From: Vibrio pomeroyi
GTDB lineage: Bacteria > Pseudomonadota > Gammaproteobacteria > Enterobacterales > Vibrionaceae
Direction of reading: 5' to 3'
DNA length: 64,000 bases
Assembly: GCF_024347595.1 (NCBI RefSeq)
Contig: NZ_AP025507.1
Coordinates: forward strand, 1,860,001-1,924,000
In this document: in pieces, positions 17,532 through 25,442 of the stretch
Layout: each line of letters begins with the position of its first letter
Position numbering within the stretch: position 1 is the first letter of the stretch
The notes under the pieces: model-generated
Told to the model about the DNA's origin: nothing
Database searches by the model: none
The model's input: only the letters and a program-made list of their open reading frames with translations
Position numbers and translations under genes: made by a program

Positions 17532-17557
17532 TTGCAAATCGCAATTGCATAATGCAA
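17532..17557. promoter_or_regulatory. Tandem LuxO-type binding sites for the plus-strand qrr
   Basis: Two abutting 13-base sites are present: TTGCAAATCGCAA (17532-17544) and TTGCATAATGCAA (17545-17557). The known LuxO operator is TTGCA-W3-TGCAA; the second site matches completely. They lie about 110-135 bases before the sRNA start, as expected for a sigma-54 enhancer. Confidence 0.82.
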
Positions 17558-17639
17558 CAAGGGAATTCTAAAACGCGAATAAAATGGCCAAATACGCACC
17601 AAATTGCTATTAAACAGCCTATATTCGAGGTTTTAAAAG

Positions 17640-17655
17640 TTGGCACGCTATCTGC
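17640..17655 (+). promoter_or_regulatory. Sigma-54 promoter of the plus-strand qrr
   Basis: TTGGCACG is followed by CTGC with GG and GC exactly 10 bases apart. The sRNA 5' end GACCC begins 13 bases after the GC. The upstream TTTTAAAAG is shared with the second qrr promoter. Confidence 0.88.
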
Positions 17656-17667
17656 TTTGTATATATC

Positions 17668-17777
17668 GACCCTTCTTAAGCCGAGGGTCACCTAGCCAAC
17701 TGACGTTGTTAGTGAACCTTATTCTTGTTCACAAAATATATAAGCCAATTGCGGTTATTGCGATTGGCTATTTTTTT
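17668..17777 (+). ncRNA. qrr: Qrr quorum-regulatory small RNA
   Basis: Qrr RNAs are Hfq-dependent sRNAs made at low cell density when phospho-LuxO activates sigma-54 promoters. They control the master regulator LuxR/HapR and other mRNAs. This 110-base copy begins with the family stem GACCC...GGGTC. It carries the highly conserved CTAGCCAACTGACGTTG core, a second GTGAAC/GTTCAC stem, and a terminator AGCCAATTGC/GCGATTGGCT with seven Ts. The first 53 bases are identical to the minus-strand copy at 25221-25327. luxO is not in the window. The next gene downstream is codB, but the terminator makes this an independent transcript. Confidence 0.93.
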
Positions 17778-17881
17778 GCCTGTCGTTTGGCTAACCGCCC
17801 CCCTCTCGATACAGACACCCATTCAATCGCATAATAATCAACATTCATAGCCAACTATCGATAGCAGATATTCAATACACC

Positions 17882-17899
17882 ATAGAAAACGTTTTCTAT
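17882..17899. promoter_or_regulatory. PurR-like operator upstream of codBA
   Basis: ATAGAAAACGTTTTCTAT is a perfect 18-base palindrome with the central AAACGTTT of LacI-family PurR operators. E. coli codBA is repressed by PurR, so control by purine availability fits, though another LacI-family factor is possible. Confidence 0.6.
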
Positions 17900-18003
17900 T
17901 TATTTTCATGAAATAAATGAAGAAAATAACCTTATGTTTTACAAGAAATTTAAGGTGATAATTGATTCTCAGGTGCCTTTATTGACAAAATTAGCATTGA
18001 CTA

Positions 18004-18019
18004 TGTGATTTATATCACC
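18004..18019. promoter_or_regulatory. CRP-like site upstream of codB
   Basis: TGTGA-TTTATA-TCACC has the CRP spacing with one mismatch in the second half (TCACA expected). It lies 70 bases before the codB ATG. Confidence 0.45.
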
Positions 18020-18088
18020 ATAATGCGCACGTTTGCCTGCAATACGGCGACCGTTAATTTTAATTTTGATCATTTGCGGAGGTAAAAA

Positions 18089-19327
18089 ATGGCTGCTGAT
18101 AATAACTACAGTCTAGGGCCGGTTCCTACATCGGCTAGGAAAGGAGTCGCTTCACTCACCATGGTAATGCTTGGACTCACTTTCTTCTCTGCAAGTATGT
18201 GGACAGGTGGTTCACTCGGGACAGGCCTCTCATTCAACGATTTCTTCCTCGCCGTTCTCATCGGTAACCTAATTCTTGGTATTTACACTTCTTTTCTTGG
18301 CTACATCGGCTCATCTACTGGCCTCTCTACTCACCTCCTAGCGCGTTTCTCTTTCGGTACAAAAGGCTCATGGCTTCCTTCTGCTCTACTTGGTGGTACA
18401 CAAGTCGGTTGGTTTGGCGTAGGTGTAGCGATGTTTGCAATTCCGGTACAGAAAGCGACGGGCATTGATACCAACACCTTGATTATTGTGTCAGGCCTTT
18501 TGATGACAGGTACGGTGTACTTCGGTATTAAAGCGCTAATGGTGCTTTCAGCGATTGCTGTTCCAGCGATTGCTATTCTTGGTGGTTACTCAGTATTGAC
18601 TGCGGTAGACAGCGTTGGCGGACTAGAACAGCTACAACTGATTAAACCAGAAACTCCAATGGACTTCTCAATGGCCTTAGCAATGGTTGTAGGTTCATTT
18701 GTTAGTGCAGGTACGCTAACGGCCGATTTTGTTCGCTTTGGTAAGAAGCCAGCGAGCGCAGTATTGATCACAATGGTTGCATTCTTCATCGGTAACTCGC
18801 TGATGTTCATCTTCGGCGCAGCCGGTGCAGCAGCGACAGGCCAATCAGACATTTCAGATGTGATGATTGCACAAGGACTACTGCTTCCAGCAATCATCGT
18901 TCTTGGCTTGAACATCTGGACAACCAATGAAAACGCACTTTATGCATCTGGCCTTGGTTTATCTAACATCACTGGTCGCTCAAGTACTACAATGTCTATC
19001 ATTAACGGCATCATCGGTACGATTTTCGCGCTTTGGTTGTACAACAACTTCGTAGGTTGGCTAACCTTCCTATCGTTGGCGATTCCACCAATTGGTGGCG
19101 TAATCATCGCTGACTTCTTCGCGAACCGTAAACGTTACAAAGATTTTGCAAATGCAGAGTTCCAAACCGTTAATTGGGCTGGCATTATCGCGGTAGCAAC
19201 AGGCGTAGCCGCTGGTCACTTCCTTCCTGGCGTTGTTCCTTTAAACGCAGTGTTAGGTGGTGCAATCAGTTACCTCGTGCTTAATCCTCTATTGAACAAA
19301 AAAGCTCTGAAATCTCAGGCCGCTTAA
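18089..19327 (+). CDS. codB: Cytosine permease CodB (NCS1 family)
   Basis: The 412-residue inner-membrane symporter has about 12 hydrophobic segments. It carries NCS1 features: the N-terminal VPTSARKGVASLTMVMLGLTF, SASMWTGGSLGTG, and GTLTADFVRFGK in the middle. It imports cytosine for deamination by CodA, whose gene starts 9 bases after this stop. GGAGG at good spacing supports the ATG. The operon start carries PurR-like and CRP-like sites and is preceded by the qrr gene. Confidence 0.93.
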   Translation: MAADNNYSLGPVPTSARKGVASLTMVMLGLTFFSASMWTGGSLGTGLSFNDFFLAVLIGNLILGIYTSFLGYIGSSTGLSTHLLARFSFGTKGSWLPSALLGGTQVGWFGVGVAMFAIPVQKATGIDTNTLIIVSGLLMTGTVYFGIKALMVLSAIAVPAIAILGGYSVLTAVDSVGGLEQLQLIKPETPMDFSMALAMVVGSFVSAGTLTADFVRFGKKPASAVLITMVAFFIGNSLMFIFGAAGAAATGQSDISDVMIAQGLLLPAIIVLGLNIWTTNENALYASGLGLSNITGRSSTTMSIINGIIGTIFALWLYNNFVGWLTFLSLAIPPIGGVIIADFFANRKRYKDFANAEFQTVNWAGIIAVATGVAAGHFLPGVVPLNAVLGGAISYLVLNPLLNKKALKSQAA

Positions 19328-19336
19328 GGACACACT

Positions 19337-20614
19337 ATGACAACCCTATTAATCAAGAACGCGAAACTTCAAGACCAAGAGGGCTTGAAACAGATTCTGA
19401 TTGAAAATGGTCAATTTTCTCGCATTCTCGATAATGACGCACAAATCAATCATCAAGGTGACATCCTTGATGCTGAAGGTGGCATTGCTGTTACACCGTT
19501 CTGTGAACCGCACATCCACCTAGATACCACTCAAACCGCTGGTGAGCCTAACTGGAACATCTCTGGCACTTTGTTTGAAGGTATTGAGCGTTGGGCTGAG
19601 CGTAAAGAACTGCTATCAATTGAAGACGTAAAATCTCGTGCGAAGCAAACACTGAAATGGCAGATCGCTAACGGTGTTCAACACGTGCGTACTCACGTTG
19701 ACGTATCTGACCCAACGTTAGTTGCGTTAAGAGCGATGGTTGAAGTTCGTGAAGAGATGAAAGAGTGGGTCGACATTCAGATCGTTGCATTCCCTCAGGA
19801 AGGCATTCTTTCATACCCTAACGGCAAAGAGTTGCTTGAAGAAGCCGTAAAGATCGGCGCTGACGTTATTGGTGCTATCCCTCACTTCGAATTCACTCGT
19901 GAATACGGTGTTGAATCTCTGCATTACGTGTTCGAGCTTGCACGCAAGTACGACTGTCTGATCGACGTTCACTGTGATGAAATCGACGACGAACAATCTC
20001 GTTTTGTTGAAACACTGGCAGCCCTTGCTCATAAATTTGAGATGGGTGAAAAGGTAACGGCAAGCCACACAACGGCGATGGGTTCTTACAACGGTGCTTA
20101 CGCGTCTCGTCTGTTCCGTCTATTGAAGATGTCTGGTATCAACTTCGTAGCAAACCCGTTAGTGAACATTCACTTACAAGGCCGTTTCGACGATTACCCG
20201 AAACGCCGTGGCGTGACTCGTGTGAAAGAGATGCTAGCAGCAAACATCAACGTTTGTTTTGGCCACGATGACGTGTTTGACCCATGGTACCCACTGGGTA
20301 CAGCGAACATGCTTCAAGTTCTGCACATGGGACTGCACGTAACACAGGTTATGGGCTACGACCAAATCAACAACTCGCTAGATTTGATCAGCAAAAACTC
20401 TGCTCGCACATTGAACATCCAAGACAACTTCGGTATCGAAGAAGGTAAGCCAGGTAGCCTACTGATTCTTCCTGCTGATAATGGCTTTGATGCAGTGCGT
20501 CGCCAAGTACCAGTGCAGTATTCAGTACGCCACGGCAAGGTGATCGCAGAGACTCAGCCAGCTAAAACAAAAATTAACTTAGCTCAAACAGAAGATATCA
20601 ACTTCAAGCGTTAA
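19337..20614 (+). CDS. codA: Cytosine deaminase CodA
   Basis: Amidohydrolase of 425 residues converting cytosine to uracil and ammonia in the cytosol, pyrimidine salvage. Metal ligands are seen in EPHIHLD (H59 and H61), in the HCDEIDDEQ segment (His and Glu), in [11 protein letters not shown], and in [11 protein letters not shown], where the final metal Asp lies. Length and all motifs match E. coli CodA. AAGGA precedes the ATG. It forms an operon with codB and is followed by a terminator. Confidence 0.95.
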
Positions 20615-20634
20615 TATCGTCTATACTAATGAAG

Positions 20635-20660
20635 AAAAGGAAGCTGAGATGCTTCCTTTT
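20635..20660 (+). terminator. Intrinsic terminator of codBA
   Basis: AAAGGAAGC and GCTTCCTTT pair around a six-base loop, ending in TTTT. Confidence 0.75.
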
Positions 20661-20970
20661 GTTGTGTTGGCGAAGCGACAAAACTATCACTAATTCAGTG
20701 TATTTTTTGTACATTCGCACGGTATGACAAAAAAAGCACAGATTTCGCAATCAATGTGTGTACATCTCAAAAGACTGTGTTAACATGCTCTCGCTCTGTT
20801 AGCCGGAGTTATTTAAGTTAGATGAATAGTAAAAAATTGACATGTAAAATCGTTACCCGTTTTTGTAAGTAGTTTTTCCTTATTTCTTAGCAATATTAAA
20901 TAATTCAATTATCAGCGCATTGCAGTAATGCAATCAACAATTTAGAAAATTTATGAATAAGGGACAAATT
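20661..20970. other. Leader region of the cold-shock gene
   Basis: About 310 AT-rich bases without an ORF of note. Cold-shock genes usually have long structured 5' leaders, so part of this is probably transcribed. A TTGACA at 20837-20842 is a possible -35, but I cannot find a good -10 at 17 bases. An ATTGCAGTAATGCAAT near-palindrome at 20919-20934 has no assigned role. Confidence 0.4.
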
Positions 20971-21183
20971 ATGTCTAACACAAATACTGGCACTGTAAAA
21001 TGGTTTAACGAAGAGAAAGGTTTCGGCTTCATTTCTCAAGACAACGGCGGCGCTGACGTATTCGTACACTTCCGTGCTATCGTTTCTGAAGGCTTCAAAA
21101 CTCTGAAAGAAGGCCAAAAGGTTTCTTTCGAAGTTGAAAACGGTCAAAAAGGCCTACAAGCAGCAAACGTTGTTGCTCAATAA
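20971..21183 (+). CDS. CspA-family cold-shock RNA/DNA-binding protein
   Basis: A 70-residue single-stranded nucleic-acid-binding protein with one cold-shock domain. [13 protein letters not shown] contains RNP1 and VFVHFRAI contains RNP2. It should act as an RNA chaperone in the cytoplasm. ATG 20971 is preferred because AAGGGA lies 6 bases upstream; an in-frame ATG at 20953 would add six non-conserved residues. A clean terminator follows. Cold induction is suggested by family and long leader only. Confidence 0.92.
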
Positions 21184-21208
21184 TTAGCTTTTAGCTAAAA
21201 AGAATTTT

Positions 21209-21237
21209 AAAGCGCTGATTTTTATCGGCGCTTTTTT
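21209..21237 (+). terminator. Intrinsic terminator of the cold-shock gene
   Basis: AAAGCGCTGAT pairs with ATCGGCGCTTT (one G-U pair) around TTTT and continues into a T-run. Confidence 0.85.
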
Positions 21238-21636
21238 ATATCTGCTCATGTACTCCCCTCTTCCTTGCTTTCGTTACACGCTTCTTCTCTCCCCCTCTTG
21301 CGAATCTAATTGTATCGTTCAAAGGCCCAGATTCAATTGTTCATACAGATTCTACGCTAAGAACATCACCCCAAGCTTCAGCACACCACACCCAGAGATT
21401 GAGTTGAGCTTTTCACCTAAAACCTCACCTATGTTCCAAAATGAATAACCAAAAATATGGTTAAAGAACAATCCATTAGATGTAGTTATGAATACCCAAT
21501 CGATATTCATAATAAAAAAGAGTAATTTATCCAACCCTCATCCATTAATTATATAATTTTTAAAGCAAAGACCTTCGAAATCCGCTAACCTTGTCCACAA
21601 GTGGCTTTAGTTAGTTTGGTACCTGCAGTAAAAATA
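21238..21636. other. Intergenic stretch before the diguanylate cyclase gene
   Basis: About 400 bases. Frames present here show no family likeness and lack ribosome sites. I see no clear promoter or repeat. Confidence 0.4.
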
Positions 21637-22653
21637 ATGAAGAAAGACGAATTTCAGAAATCCACCGCAAATCTAAAAAAAGCGGTGCCTCTTATGATGA
21701 AGAACAGGGTGTCTACCACACCGGCAAATTACGCACTTTGGTACACCTATGTCGACAATGCTATCCCACAGCTAACTCAAGACATGGATGGTATTTTAGA
21801 ACACTACGGTATCTGCCCTCCTGCCGTTGGTGAACAGCTTTACAACAATTACGTTGCTAGCAAATCCGAAACCAATATCAACGACCTCCGTGCGAATTTA
21901 GAACTGTTAGTTTCTGAAGTGTCGAACTCGATGAACGACACACTGACCGATACCTCTGCTTTCTCTGACATGATCGACAAAAGCTTCGAGGACTTGGCTC
22001 GTGTTGATAACGAAAGCTTATCTATCGATGAAGTGATGACACTGGTTCGTCAGCTGGTTTCGGAATCTCGTCATATTCGTCACTCTACTCAGTTTTTAAA
22101 CTCGCAACTGAACTCGGCTACGTCAGAAATCACCAAACTGAAAAGCCAACTTGTCGAAGTTCAGAAAGACGCGCTTTTTGATAGCACAACCACACTGTAT
22201 AACCGTCGTTCGTTCGACCGTGATATAGAAACCTTATGTGGAGCGCAACAATCTCTGTGTCTGATTCTTCTCGATATCGACCACTTTAAAAATTTCAACG
22301 ACACCTATGGTCACTTGTTTGGCGATATGGTTCTTAAAGGAATAGCTCGCAAACTTAAACTAAGTTGTCGTGAAGGTATTTCTGCTTATCGCTTCGGTGG
22401 CGAAGAGTTCGCACTCATTGTGCCAAACAAATCTGTGCGTATTGCTCGTCAGCTTGCTGATACCAACCGTCGCTCTCTCGAGAAACTGTCGATTAAAGAT
22501 CGCCGTAGCGGTCAGCAGGTTGGTAATATCACCGCATCGTTTGGTGTGGCCGAACTTGAACCGGGTGAATCAGCACAATCGCTGATCGAACGCGCTGATA
22601 AGCTACTTTATGAAGCGAAATCACTGGGTCGTAACCGAGTAATGCCTTTGTAA
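21637..22653 (+). CDS. Diguanylate cyclase (GGDEF protein, cytosolic)
   Basis: The 338-residue protein lacks membrane segments. Residues about 1-165 form a helical region with the PANYALWYTYV motif found in several Vibrio and Pseudomonas diguanylate cyclases. The C-terminal GGDEF domain has the active sequence RFGGEEF and LLDIDHFKNFNDTYGH. The inhibitory RxxD site is absent: the aligned position reads REGI. It should make c-di-GMP. The ATG at 21637 fits the conserved KKDEFQKS start; the frame is open to a GTG at 21601. A terminator follows. Confidence 0.87.
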   Translation: MKKDEFQKSTANLKKAVPLMMKNRVSTTPANYALWYTYVDNAIPQLTQDMDGILEHYGICPPAVGEQLYNNYVASKSETNINDLRANLELLVSEVSNSMNDTLTDTSAFSDMIDKSFEDLARVDNESLSIDEVMTLVRQLVSESRHIRHSTQFLNSQLNSATSEITKLKSQLVEVQKDALFDSTTTLYNRRSFDRDIETLCGAQQSLCLILLDIDHFKNFNDTYGHLFGDMVLKGIARKLKLSCREGISAYRFGGEEFALIVPNKSVRIARQLADTNRRSLEKLSIKDRRSGQQVGNITASFGVAELEPGESAQSLIERADKLLYEAKSLGRNRVMPL

Positions 22654-22703
22654 GACGCAATCAATGCTCCTTTCAACACATTAGTCGGCTCGTATTGAAA
22701 TTA

Positions 22704-22738
22704 GAAAGCCCCAAAGACATCATCTTTGGGGCTTTTTC
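22704..22738. terminator. Intrinsic terminator after the GGDEF gene
   Basis: AAAGCCCCAAAGA and its exact complement enclose five bases and run into TTTTT. The symmetric A-run allows use by the convergent minus-strand gene too. Confidence 0.85.
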
Positions 22739-22777
22739 TTTAACTATACAAATTGGTTTGTTACTTAGGAATCACTG

Positions 22778-23377
22778 TTAAATCTGGAAGCAGTAATTCA
22801 GGCAGTAGTCTTCACCACTCTTAGCTCTGAACTCTTTATCTTCACTGCACGCTTTTGGTTTTCCTTTCTCGTCACCTTTTACCAGGCTGATCCAGTGACG
22901 CATTGCTGCAATAGTCTCTTGATGTAATGTAGAGCTCGTTGCTTCCATTGGTGATTGACCGAAGGTCGTGCACGACTCTAACTGAATGTCATCAATCTCT
23001 ACTAGCTCAATACACCCCGTCCCTTTGTGACAACCAAACATCACTTCTAGGTGGCTTCCGCTGCCATCACGGAACAAGATTGAGTCTGGGTCACTCTTCT
23101 CACCCATGTAAGCCACAAACTGCTTAGGGTGCTTCAGACCGCTGTGTTGACCATCTTTAAAGTAAGCCATGATATGGCGGTAATCGACTACGTAGCTCGT
23201 TACGTCTTGGTGTGAGCCATGCTCCAGTGGGAACAGACGGTCAAGTAATTGCTTTGCTTTCACTTGCTTTTCAGTTTGCTGGTTTGCACTGATTGTCTCC
23301 ACGGCAAAGACAGCTTCAGCGATAAATGGCTTTGATTGTTTTTGGATTTCTGTTTTATCGAATGTAAGCATATTCAT
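22778..23377 (-). CDS. Malate-synthase-G-like protein lacking catalytic residues (199 aa)
   Basis: Residues 44-170 resemble the inserted alpha/beta domain of malate synthase G. RLFPLEHGSHQDV, LKHPKQFVAYMGEKSDPDSIL, DDIQLES and HWISLVKGD occur in the same order and spacing as in the 720-residue enzyme. Where malate synthase G has the conserved CEDSVAAVDAEDK with active-site acids, this protein reads PMEATSSTLHQET, so catalysis is not expected. The last 30 residues hold three cysteines (C177, C192, C196), of which C192 and C196 are four apart. GAGGGAAAG supports ATG 23377, and the gene is intact, so it may be a repurposed domain rather than debris. It is divergent from the DUF3612 regulator. 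The family comparison is from memory, not from a search. Confidence 0.65.
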   Translation of the reverse strand: MNMLTFDKTEIQKQSKPFIAEAVFAVETISANQQTEKQVKAKQLLDRLFPLEHGSHQDVTSYVVDYRHIMAYFKDGQHSGLKHPKQFVAYMGEKSDPDSILFRDGSGSHLEVMFGCHKGTGCIELVEIDDIQLESCTTFGQSPMEATSSTLHQETIAAMRHWISLVKGDEKGKPKACSEDKEFRAKSGEDYCLNYCFQI

Positions 23378-23546
23378 AGTCTTTCCCTCTTGACCAGTCC
23401 GGTGAAAGCCACCGATTTGTAACGCAAAAATGTGTCCTAGAGCAATTATTCCAAACTAACGTTTAATTTATTTGTCATTTTGTGAATTGCTTAGTTTGTA
23501 GATTAGCGGTTTTTTACATACAATTTCACAACAAAAATTTTACAAT

Positions 23547-25079
23547 GTGAATTTTACAAATATGGCCTTGTCAAAAAGTTTAGTTCGTCAGTCACATTTC
23601 CTAGGTACGAAAATACGTAACCTTAGGAAGCGTAACCATTTAACGATGGAAGATCTGTCTGCGCGTTGTATTAGAATCAACCCAGAATACGCGCCTTCCG
23701 TTTCTTACCTTTCAATGATTGAACGTGGAAAGCGGGTGCCAAGCATCGACATGCTGGAAGTGATCGCGCAGGTCTTTCAGAAGAACCCTACGTGGTTTCT
23801 CGACGACGAATCAGAACAACAAGCCATAGCTCCAGATAAAGGGAACCGAGGTGGGATAAGCGGTATGGCGCTCGAGCCTAGCTTTCTTTTCTCCAACGAC
23901 ATCCTGCAAATTGCCATACCCGAGATGTTGTCACAAACCGGTATCTCTGGTCGCCAGTTTGCACACCTATTAATTCGAGCACACCAAGAGAGCAATCAAA
24001 ACCACTTCCCTGACCTTGAGCGTGCCGCAGAGGAAGTTGGCCTAAAACGCCTCAACCTCAGCGTGGAAGACCTCATAGACATCGCGAGAACACTTGGAAT
24101 CAATATCCGTTGGGTAACACGCACACCTCAAGATGTGGTCGATGAGCTCGGCATCAACGCCAAGCAACTAGTGACCTCGTTCTTCGAACCTCCAGGTACG
24201 ATCTTCTTAAACGAAATTCTTAAAGAGTACCCAACTCGTCTGAAATACGACCTGTCGGTTTACATCGGCCATTGCATTTTGCATAGCAAAGAAGGATTAA
24301 AGAGTGTGTTGTCAGTCGGCAATAACAACACATGGGACGATAACCAAGTATCAGGCTCTTCCCAACTCAACTCTCAAGATATTCTTCAAGCATGGCGAGA
24401 CTTTGAATCAAGCTTCTTTGCTGGCGCGTTGTTATGCCCGAAAGTCCCATTCAGACAACTGCTCGATCGTACTGGTTACGAAATCGACGTTCACAAAAGA
24501 GCAGGGGTTTCCCCCTCTGTTGCGATGCGTCGAATGACGGTAGTATCGCCCTACCCTCACTGGCACTACTTTGATGCTTATGGACCGGGGAAACTCAAGG
24601 CGGTATACCGCGGAAACGGGATTCCACTGCCTTGGGGGAATATGAGAACGGTCGCTGACCCATGTCAACATTGGGCTGTGTTCCGTCGATTATCTGAACC
24701 TAGGGCGGGTAGCTCTGCTCAGATCTCCATTTTGAATGTGGGTGATGAGCCAAGAATCTACTGCTGTGAATCCATCAATATGACGGATCCAGCGGGCAAC
24801 AATCGCGTTTTGTGTGCTGGTATAGATCTCAACCCTGCGATTGATGCTCAAGGCGGTAATTCGAGAGAAATAGCAGAGCAGCTTAAGGCGTCATGCGTCA
24901 ACAATGGCGGCTCTGTAGCAATACCGCGTAACATCAAGAAAGATCTCACGACAATAGCCAAGATTCTAAATATAAATTGGATTGAACGTGGGATTGAGAC
25001 AGAGGCGAGGCTTATCTGCTCCAGAGGCGGAGAATGCCCACGCCAACCAAGCTGTTACTCAAAGTGTGGTGAGTGTTAA
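23547..25079 (+). CDS. XRE-type regulator with DUF3612 domain
   Basis: The 510-residue protein has an N-terminal Cro/CI helix-turn-helix (residues about 18-80: LGTKIRNLRKRNHLTMEDL, then YLSMIERGKRVPS). A large C-terminal region follows, of the type called DUF3612 in Vibrionaceae. It resembles the short-chain-acyl-CoA regulator group in layout. Five cysteines fall within the last 20 residues (CSRGGECPRQ and following), which could bind a metal or iron-sulfur cluster. The start is GTG 23547 or, 5 codons later, ATG 23562 (MALSKSL). It is divergent from the malate-synthase-like gene, suggesting a link to C2 or acyl metabolism (inference). Confidence 0.8.
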   Translation: MNFTNMALSKSLVRQSHFLGTKIRNLRKRNHLTMEDLSARCIRINPEYAPSVSYLSMIERGKRVPSIDMLEVIAQVFQKNPTWFLDDESEQQAIAPDKGNRGGISGMALEPSFLFSNDILQIAIPEMLSQTGISGRQFAHLLIRAHQESNQNHFPDLERAAEEVGLKRLNLSVEDLIDIARTLGINIRWVTRTPQDVVDELGINAKQLVTSFFEPPGTIFLNEILKEYPTRLKYDLSVYIGHCILHSKEGLKSVLSVGNNNTWDDNQVSGSSQLNSQDILQAWRDFESSFFAGALLCPKVPFRQLLDRTGYEIDVHKRAGVSPSVAMRRMTVVSPYPHWHYFDAYGPGKLKAVYRGNGIPLPWGNMRTVADPCQHWAVFRRLSEPRAGSSAQISILNVGDEPRIYCCESINMTDPAGNNRVLCAGIDLNPAIDAQGGNSREIAEQLKASCVNNGGSVAIPRNIKKDLTTIAKILNINWIERGIETEARLICSRGGECPRQPSCYSKCGEC

Positions 25080-25220
25080 AGCAATTGAGGTACGAGCATG
25101 ATAAGCAATTATTGTGTTCTACTTATTTTGCCTGGTTAGCTTTGATTTGGCCTGATTGGCTTTATAGAGCAACGGCCATTAGTAAAAAGCAATAAAACAA
25201 ATAGAACCTAAAATTCAGGC

Positions 25221-25327
25221 AAAAAAAAACCAATCACAAAAGGGTGATTGGTCATATATTTTGTGTGAACAATAAAGGTTCACTAACAACGTCAGTTGGC
25301 TAGGTGACCCTCGGCTTAAGAAGGGTC
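25221..25327 (-). ncRNA. qrr: Second Qrr quorum-regulatory small RNA
   Basis: Minus-strand Qrr of about 107 bases. From the GACCC 5' end at 25327 the first 53 bases are identical to the copy at 17668. They include the GACCC/GGGTC stem and the CTAGCCAACTGACGTTG core. The middle stem GTGAAC/GTTCAC is kept with a different loop. The terminator differs (ACCAATCACC/GTGATTGGT with nine Ts). A sigma-54 promoter and LuxO-type sites precede it. It is transcribed toward the DUF3612 gene, whose stop is 141 bases away. Confidence 0.93.
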
Positions 25328-25339
25328 ACCATTACTAAT

Positions 25340-25355
25340 GCAGCATACGTGCCAA
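25340..25355 (-). promoter_or_regulatory. Sigma-54 promoter of the minus-strand qrr
   Basis: On the minus strand TTGGCACG leads to CTGC-type GC after exactly 10 bases, 13 bases before the sRNA start. TTTTAAAAG precedes it, as in the other qrr promoter. Confidence 0.88.
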
Positions 25356-25416
25356 CTTTTAAAACACGTATTTACTACGCATCTGGACACGTATTAGCCG
25401 TAAATTCTTGTTTGTT

Positions 25417-25442
25417 TTGCAAACTGGAATTGCAAATTGCAA
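25417..25442. promoter_or_regulatory. Tandem LuxO-type binding sites for the minus-strand qrr
   Basis: TTGCAAATTGCAA (25430-25442) matches the LuxO operator fully. The abutting TTGCAAACTGGAA (25417-25429) has one good half. Site arrangement and distance (about 90-115 bases from the start) mirror the other qrr gene. Confidence 0.8.

Follow-up and report, generated by a model that had tools for sequence, protein, structure and literature searches.

Among described systems, the closest to the locus reported here are the quorum-sensing small RNAs Qrr2-5 of Vibrio harveyi and Qrr2-4 of Vibrio cholerae, as presented in passages of PMC3262071 and PMC8043402. A 64,000-nucleotide (nt) stretch of Vibrio pomeroyi (contig NZ_AP025507.1, positions 1,860,001 to 1,924,000; hereafter the window) carries two Qrr genes, Qrr A and Qrr B, that share with those RNAs the family match, the AGCC and ACCU motifs, the sigma-54 and LuxO-type sites and the terminator. 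Unlike the V. harveyi and V. cholerae genes in these passages, the two copies are convergent and lie only 7.4 kb apart. In Vibrio anguillarum, passages of PMC3352281 place two predicted LuxO-type sites upstream of qrr2, as here, but one at each of the other three qrr promoters, whereas in this genome Qrr A, Qrr B and also a third copy, Qrr C, have two abutting predicted sites. The csrB gene of Vibrio tasmaniensis LGP32, from the same clade, is likewise a multi-copy small RNA; a passage of PMC6262261 reports it as a duplication, whereas here two old addresses appear to have been brought together. No description of this Qrr pair was noticed in titles, abstract openings or passages of the literature. 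Qrr A and Qrr B are standard Qrr genes in a clade-specific arrangement, and the pair calls for no new kind of biology. Our reading, to which we give a probability of roughly 0.88, is that they are ordinary Qrr2-5-type RNAs brought together by one rearrangement in an ancestor of the Splendidus clade and its relatives.

The window was scanned with cmscan at gathering thresholds. Two Qrr matches were returned, each spanning the full RF00378 model (positions 1-108), and both scores (108.9 and 114.6 bits) are far above the gathering score of 50. The two Qrr RNAs that a preliminary description had read from the letters are therefore confirmed, as are their opposite orientation, with 7,442 nt between them, and their identical 53-base 5' part, which corresponds to nt 2-54 of Qrr A. 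The length given there, 107-110 nt, holds for Qrr B (109 nt) but not for Qrr A (111 nt). The mRNA-pairing core has no mismatch over 26 bases in either RNA, and both contain the aphA-pairing motifs AGCC and ACCU typical of Qrr2-5. Folding of both RNAs beat all 200 shuffles (z -4.46 for Qrr A and -6.34 for Qrr B). Terminator-like hairpins, each followed by a T-run, were found at 17743-17769 in Qrr A and at 25253-25228 in Qrr B.

The promoter regions were analysed in the same window. Exact matches to TTGGCACG-N5-TGC occurred twice, one per Qrr. Allowing up to two mismatches gave 17 sites where chance predicts 17.4, so that the exact ones alone carry information. Both elements differ by one mismatch from the sigma-54 consensus YTGGCACG-N4-TTGC given in a passage of PMC3352281. 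The double LuxO-type site (TTGCA-N3-TGCAA twice, up to three mismatches) was also found twice, against 0.02 expected, and none of 100 shuffled windows contained two. The outer ends of these double sites, 17532 and 25442, are the limits of the region originally delimited, and the sigma-54 promoter and two abutting TTGCA-type sites ascribed there to each Qrr were upheld by the exact elements and by double sites with one mismatch each.

The genome consists of two contigs, the second of which (2.02 Mb) includes the window, and gave four Qrr matches in all. The weakest of these, the fourth copy (74.2 bits), is divergent from a LuxO-like gene (read as luxO from its sequence); qrr1 is described as divergent from luxO in a passage of PMC8043402. 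Qrr C, the third strong copy (C2:592338), is flanked by genes for a DUF368-like membrane protein and a MalT-like regulator (names read from the sequence).

To place the two loci among other vibrios, we took the regions round Qrr genes of further genomes and clustered the flanking genes; many of the Qrrs fell into shared addresses. Address A consists of HlyD, codB and codA, often preceded by an MgtE-like gene and followed by an AraC-type one (names again read from the sequence). Address B consists of the DUF3612 gene, a gene for a malate synthase G (MSG) insertion domain and a GGDEF gene. Address C and a fourth address also recur, the fourth in genomes G037, G050, G157 and G097. For a survey of DUF3612, the best 80 of 166 confirmed loci were fetched and their genes and Qrr cores marked. 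A Qrr faced DUF3612 from just downstream in 73 of these Vibrionaceae loci; none stood beside it in the other seven, namely L010, Vibrio maerlii (L075) and five Aliivibrio loci (L080-L084). Thirteen of the 80 had a second Qrr farther upstream, preceding codB, arranged and oriented as in the window. The possibility that recombination between the facing Qrrs had inverted the genes they enclose was considered and rejected, order and orientation being constant in all 13 loci that hold both.

Each address was also found apart from the other. In many other vibrios codBA is preceded by Qrr A. When 138 genomes of the genus were searched for codB (E 1e-80), 66 gave a match; among 49 distinct codB starts, which were taken from these genomes and the earlier loci and are not a random draw, 29 were preceded by a Qrr on their own strand at a distance of up to 6 kb, as were 18 of the 37 that share less than 94% identity. 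Four genomes that do not belong to the window's clade have a Qrr at each address, and in them A (with codBA) and B are separated on one contig by 75.6 kb (G194), 419 kb (G157), 795 kb (G050), and 962 kb or, the other way round, 883 kb (G037). Both addresses are thus found more widely than the pairing. The preliminary description is also right that Qrr genes are mostly found singly, at loci of their own, in other places. Of 37 genomes drawn evenly from the genus, 35 had a Qrr, and convergent Qrrs less than 10 kb apart were present in eight, the window's own included (G000, G005, G008, G010, G016, G017, G026 and G030), a count from which fragmented assemblies could hide some pairs. The flanking-gene survey, some of whose genomes had been picked because they carry pairs, did not enter this count.

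A quick one-gene tree with midpoint root was built from 101 DUF3612 rows: 23 with the pair, 55 with B only (upstream sequence long enough to show A missing), 16 on contigs cut short and 7 without B. With the 23 cut-short or B-less rows set aside, pair versus B-only is a single change, basal to the Splendidus clade and its relatives. All pairs fall within a 27-row clade (Shimodaira-Hasegawa-like approximate likelihood ratio test 99) that includes V. splendidus, V. crassostreae, V. lentus, V. chagasii, V. fortis, V. profundi and the window, whose DUF3612 gene groups with Vibrio splendidus-type sequences. Outside this clade, L061 reads csp-GGDEF-MSG-DUF3612-QrrB-DEAD with no codBA or Qrr A nearby, a layout consistent with a junction lying between codA and csp. 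One rearrangement, in the common ancestor of the Splendidus clade and of relatives such as V. fortis and V. profundi, would have joined an old HlyD-QrrA-codBA block to an old csp-GGDEF-MSG-DUF3612-QrrB block, and the genes between the two Qrrs would have been carried along. The pair is not fixed. Both Qrrs are present without codBA between them in G026, which retains the cold-shock element, and in G136, for which no codB match was listed; G023 has Qrr A plus only one other Qrr, on another contig, and no Qrr follows DUF3612 in L010.

Several points weigh against a single joining of old loci. When the pair label is set against every other row, the tree needs five changes, and a clade made up of the 23 pair rows and nothing else is rejected by the approximately unbiased (AU) test (p 8e-34); both results arise because three truncated contigs (L008, L018 and L020), together with L010, which lacks B, are interspersed with the pair rows. 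The timing is drawn from one gene, a quick tree and a midpoint root, and the rearrangement itself is a reconstruction. The Qrr sequences themselves were compared for the genome's own A, B and C and 40 Qrrs of other genomes, with the last 110 bases taken as promoter. Promoters were 0.62-0.71 alike, and own A against own B was the highest of the comparisons (0.71). Own A was also no closer to group A of other genomes than to group B (3' part 0.77 and 0.76; promoter 0.65 and 0.66). The addresses cannot be told apart by RNA or promoter sequence, which by itself does not decide the ancestry, and some copying or conversion between addresses may have occurred.

These likenesses bear on the proposal, made in the preliminary description, of a recent duplication, taken here to mean that one Qrr was copied within the region and inverted in this lineage. 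The 53 identical bases, the facing orientation and the promoter likeness of A and B all speak for it. The first 53 bases are nearly as alike elsewhere, however: 0.96-0.98 among own A, B and C, and 0.92-0.97 (group means) against the 40 Qrrs from elsewhere. Over the 3' part, A resembles C (0.90) more than B (0.78). The argument against duplication is drawn from the neighbourhoods and the tree. Each copy sits at an address of its own that is common to distant vibrios holding A and B far apart, with no position empty in G037, G050, G157 or G194; the pair occurs throughout the Splendidus clade and its relatives, and pairing is one change once the unscorable rows are set aside. We find a recent local duplication scarcely credible. 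Same-strand Qrr copies 0.3-0.9 kb apart, seen in other genomes, are better candidates for true duplication than the window pair: G003 (C2:681865/682260, between the two genes of address C), G006 (C2:611985/612260, with poor sigma-54 sites), G179 (C2:438005/438347) and L030 (11632/12525).

Expression of Qrr A and Qrr B, their dependence on LuxO and Hfq, and their targets are inferred by analogy with the studied vibrios. At low cell density, phosphorylated LuxO on the paired TTGCA sites would drive each Qrr from its own sigma-54 promoter, each RNA would stop at its own terminator, and each would, together with Hfq, target mRNAs of distant genes in trans, aphA and that of a luxR/hapR-type regulator among them. 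The genome has an aphA-like leader with the expected site: upstream of the only PF10400 match, taken as aphA, the best Qrr pairing spans -139 to -115 and contains GGCT and AGGT motifs. A passage of PMC3262071 places the aphA pairing about 130 nt upstream, with the same motifs.

The genes enclosed by the pair had been suggested to be under quorum influence. Two ways in which the arrangement might be functional were weighed, codB pairing that ties cytosine uptake to low cell density in the clade, or DUF3612 read-through that serves as a Qrr sponge; that either holds seems unlikely. For the first, Qrr complementarity was ranked over 655 start regions, taken at mechanically called open reading frames from about 860 kb of the genome and including repeats (GGDEF and DUF3612 twice) and two control regions. 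Pairing was scored with a home-made scorer, stricter than RNAduplex, whose long one-sided loops it does not admit; the scorer uses approximate stacking energies and ignores the structure of either RNA. codB ranked 3 with a score of -36.0 (mean -18.2, standard deviation 4.6), followed by codA (75), MSG-insertion (77), GGDEF (390), DUF3612 (557) and csp (619). luxO, a known target elsewhere, ranked only 494, and the scorer is therefore a poor guide; the aphA entry ranked 275, its region having been cut so as to miss most of the -139 to -115 site.

The codB lead was examined in the 49 distinct sequences with synonymous recoding and with 15 shuffled Qrr queries beside the real one. If codB, and through it codBA, were a direct Qrr target, cytosine uptake would follow cell density and the linkage would be kept. 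The real Qrr did have the lowest mean z of the 16 queries (-1.30) and the lowest mean score (-28.2, against -12.5 to -22.6 for the controls). The lowest shuffled control was nearly equal, however (z -1.27), and in the 37 sequences below 94% identity the real Qrr came third (-0.93, behind controls at -1.01 and -0.95). Starts with an adjacent Qrr were hardly stronger (-1.40, n=29) than those without (-1.16, n=20), and G026 and G136 keep the Qrr pair without codBA. We consider such a quorum island quite improbable; codB did not pass the controls and is a lead only, a candidate suggested by its pairing. The ranks of csp, GGDEF and DUF3612 lend no support to quorum influence on these genes, and the enclosed genes are probably not controlled as a unit.

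The GGDEF gene was also considered as the counterpart of vca0939, an mRNA activated by Qrr in V. cholerae according to a passage of PMC3828260. This was not supported; its pairing rank was 390 of 655. A homologue search with the syntenic G088 protein as query, in place of the window's own, gave no vca number among the 120 matches listed, some of which were named VdcA or GefA; vdcA we take to be VCA0956. In the inspected parts of a 43-sequence alignment of the GGDEF leader, no Qrr-like site was common to Splendidus loci and others.

In 74 of 81 sequences DUF3612 converges on Qrr B, its stop codon lying 53-224 nt (median 81) away from the Qrr core; in the window the stretch from the end of DUF3612 through Qrr B is 25079-25328. 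Such tight convergence could allow DUF3612 mRNA to cross the shared hairpin at times and yield an RNA perfectly antisense to the core of all Qrrs, which would damp them. A run of five Ts before the Qrr core on the DUF3612 strand is present in only 5 of the 74 sequences, whereas the A-run of the Qrr terminator is present in 73, and a Qrr sponge, QrrX, is known in V. cholerae (passages of PMC9732341). QrrX is only a model for this speculative antisense; QrrX itself is a distinct small RNA, located between vca0830 and vca0832 and driven by QrrT. Against the predicted antisense transcript, the Qrr B hairpin resembles a terminator on the + strand as well, where its tail is CATATATTTT, so that ordinary two-way termination suffices. 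We hold the sponge to be very improbable; if true, it would be spread over many Vibrio species through the DUF3612-Qrr B synteny.

Pfam matches of the enclosed genes (Table 1) bear out codBA, the cold-shock gene, the diguanylate cyclase and the DUF3612 gene as first listed; of the "malate-synthase-like" gene, only a malate synthase G insertion domain was found. This lone-domain protein adjoins DUF3612 in all 80 fetched loci. Its V. parahaemolyticus homologue is annotated as malate synthase, for which the domain content gives no support.

Table 1. Features of the Qrr A-Qrr B region (positions in the window; aa, amino acids; CDS, coding sequence)
Feature	Position	Strand	Details
Two abutting LuxO-type sites upstream of Qrr A	17532..17557	+	1 mismatch to 26-base double site
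Sigma-54 promoter element of Qrr A	17640..17655	+	exact TTGGCACG-N5-TGC
Qrr A small RNA	17667..17777	+	RF00378, 108.9 bits, E 4.3e-20; 111 nt
codB, cytosine/purine permease	18089..19327	+	PF02133, 222.7 bits
codA, amidohydrolase (cytosine deaminase by position)	19337..20614	+	PF07969, 216.8 bits
Cold-shock gene (CDS 20971-21183) with cspA thermoregulator RNA	20790..21238	+	RF01766, 117.3 bits, full-length; PF00313
GGDEF diguanylate cyclase	21637..22653	+	PF00990; syntenic with family called VdcA/GefA in other vibrios
199-aa protein, lone malate synthase G insertion domain	22778..23377	-	PF20658, residues 33-103
DUF3612 helix-turn-helix regulator, convergent with Qrr B	23562..25079	+	PF12268 and PF01381
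Qrr B small RNA	25220..25328	-	RF00378, 114.6 bits, E 1.9e-21; 109 nt
Sigma-54 promoter element of Qrr B	25340..25355	-	exact TTGGCACG-N5-TGC
Two abutting LuxO-type sites upstream of Qrr B	25417..25442	-	1 mismatch to 26-base double site; pattern palindromic

Qrr number varied among the genomes surveyed. At least five Vibrio genomes had 8-9 Qrrs among the matches listed (G131, G067, G084, G110 and G195; also L208-L214 and L218-L226), one of the nine in G131 being below the cut-off. TTGCA-N3-TGCAA, with up to one mismatch, was not found at 13 of 23 Qrr copies of G131, G067 and parts of G084 and G110, and several of these copies carry a longer split TTGCAAAAT...ATTTTGCA pattern instead. At a stricter setting, 11 of 196 genomes of the genus had no Qrr among the matches listed (G013, G025, G040, G069, G074, G078, G117, G124, G162, G182 and G183); two of these are about 1 Mb and one is 79% complete, and some need not be true losses.

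The locus is also a cautionary case: closeness and near-identity suggested duplication, but old and very similar copies appear to have moved together. Qrr genes gain addresses from these comparisons, in that groups A, B, C and the fourth can be followed across Vibrio by their neighbours, and with such neighbour-based addresses one can trace how single qrr genes were gained, were lost or changed their promoters.

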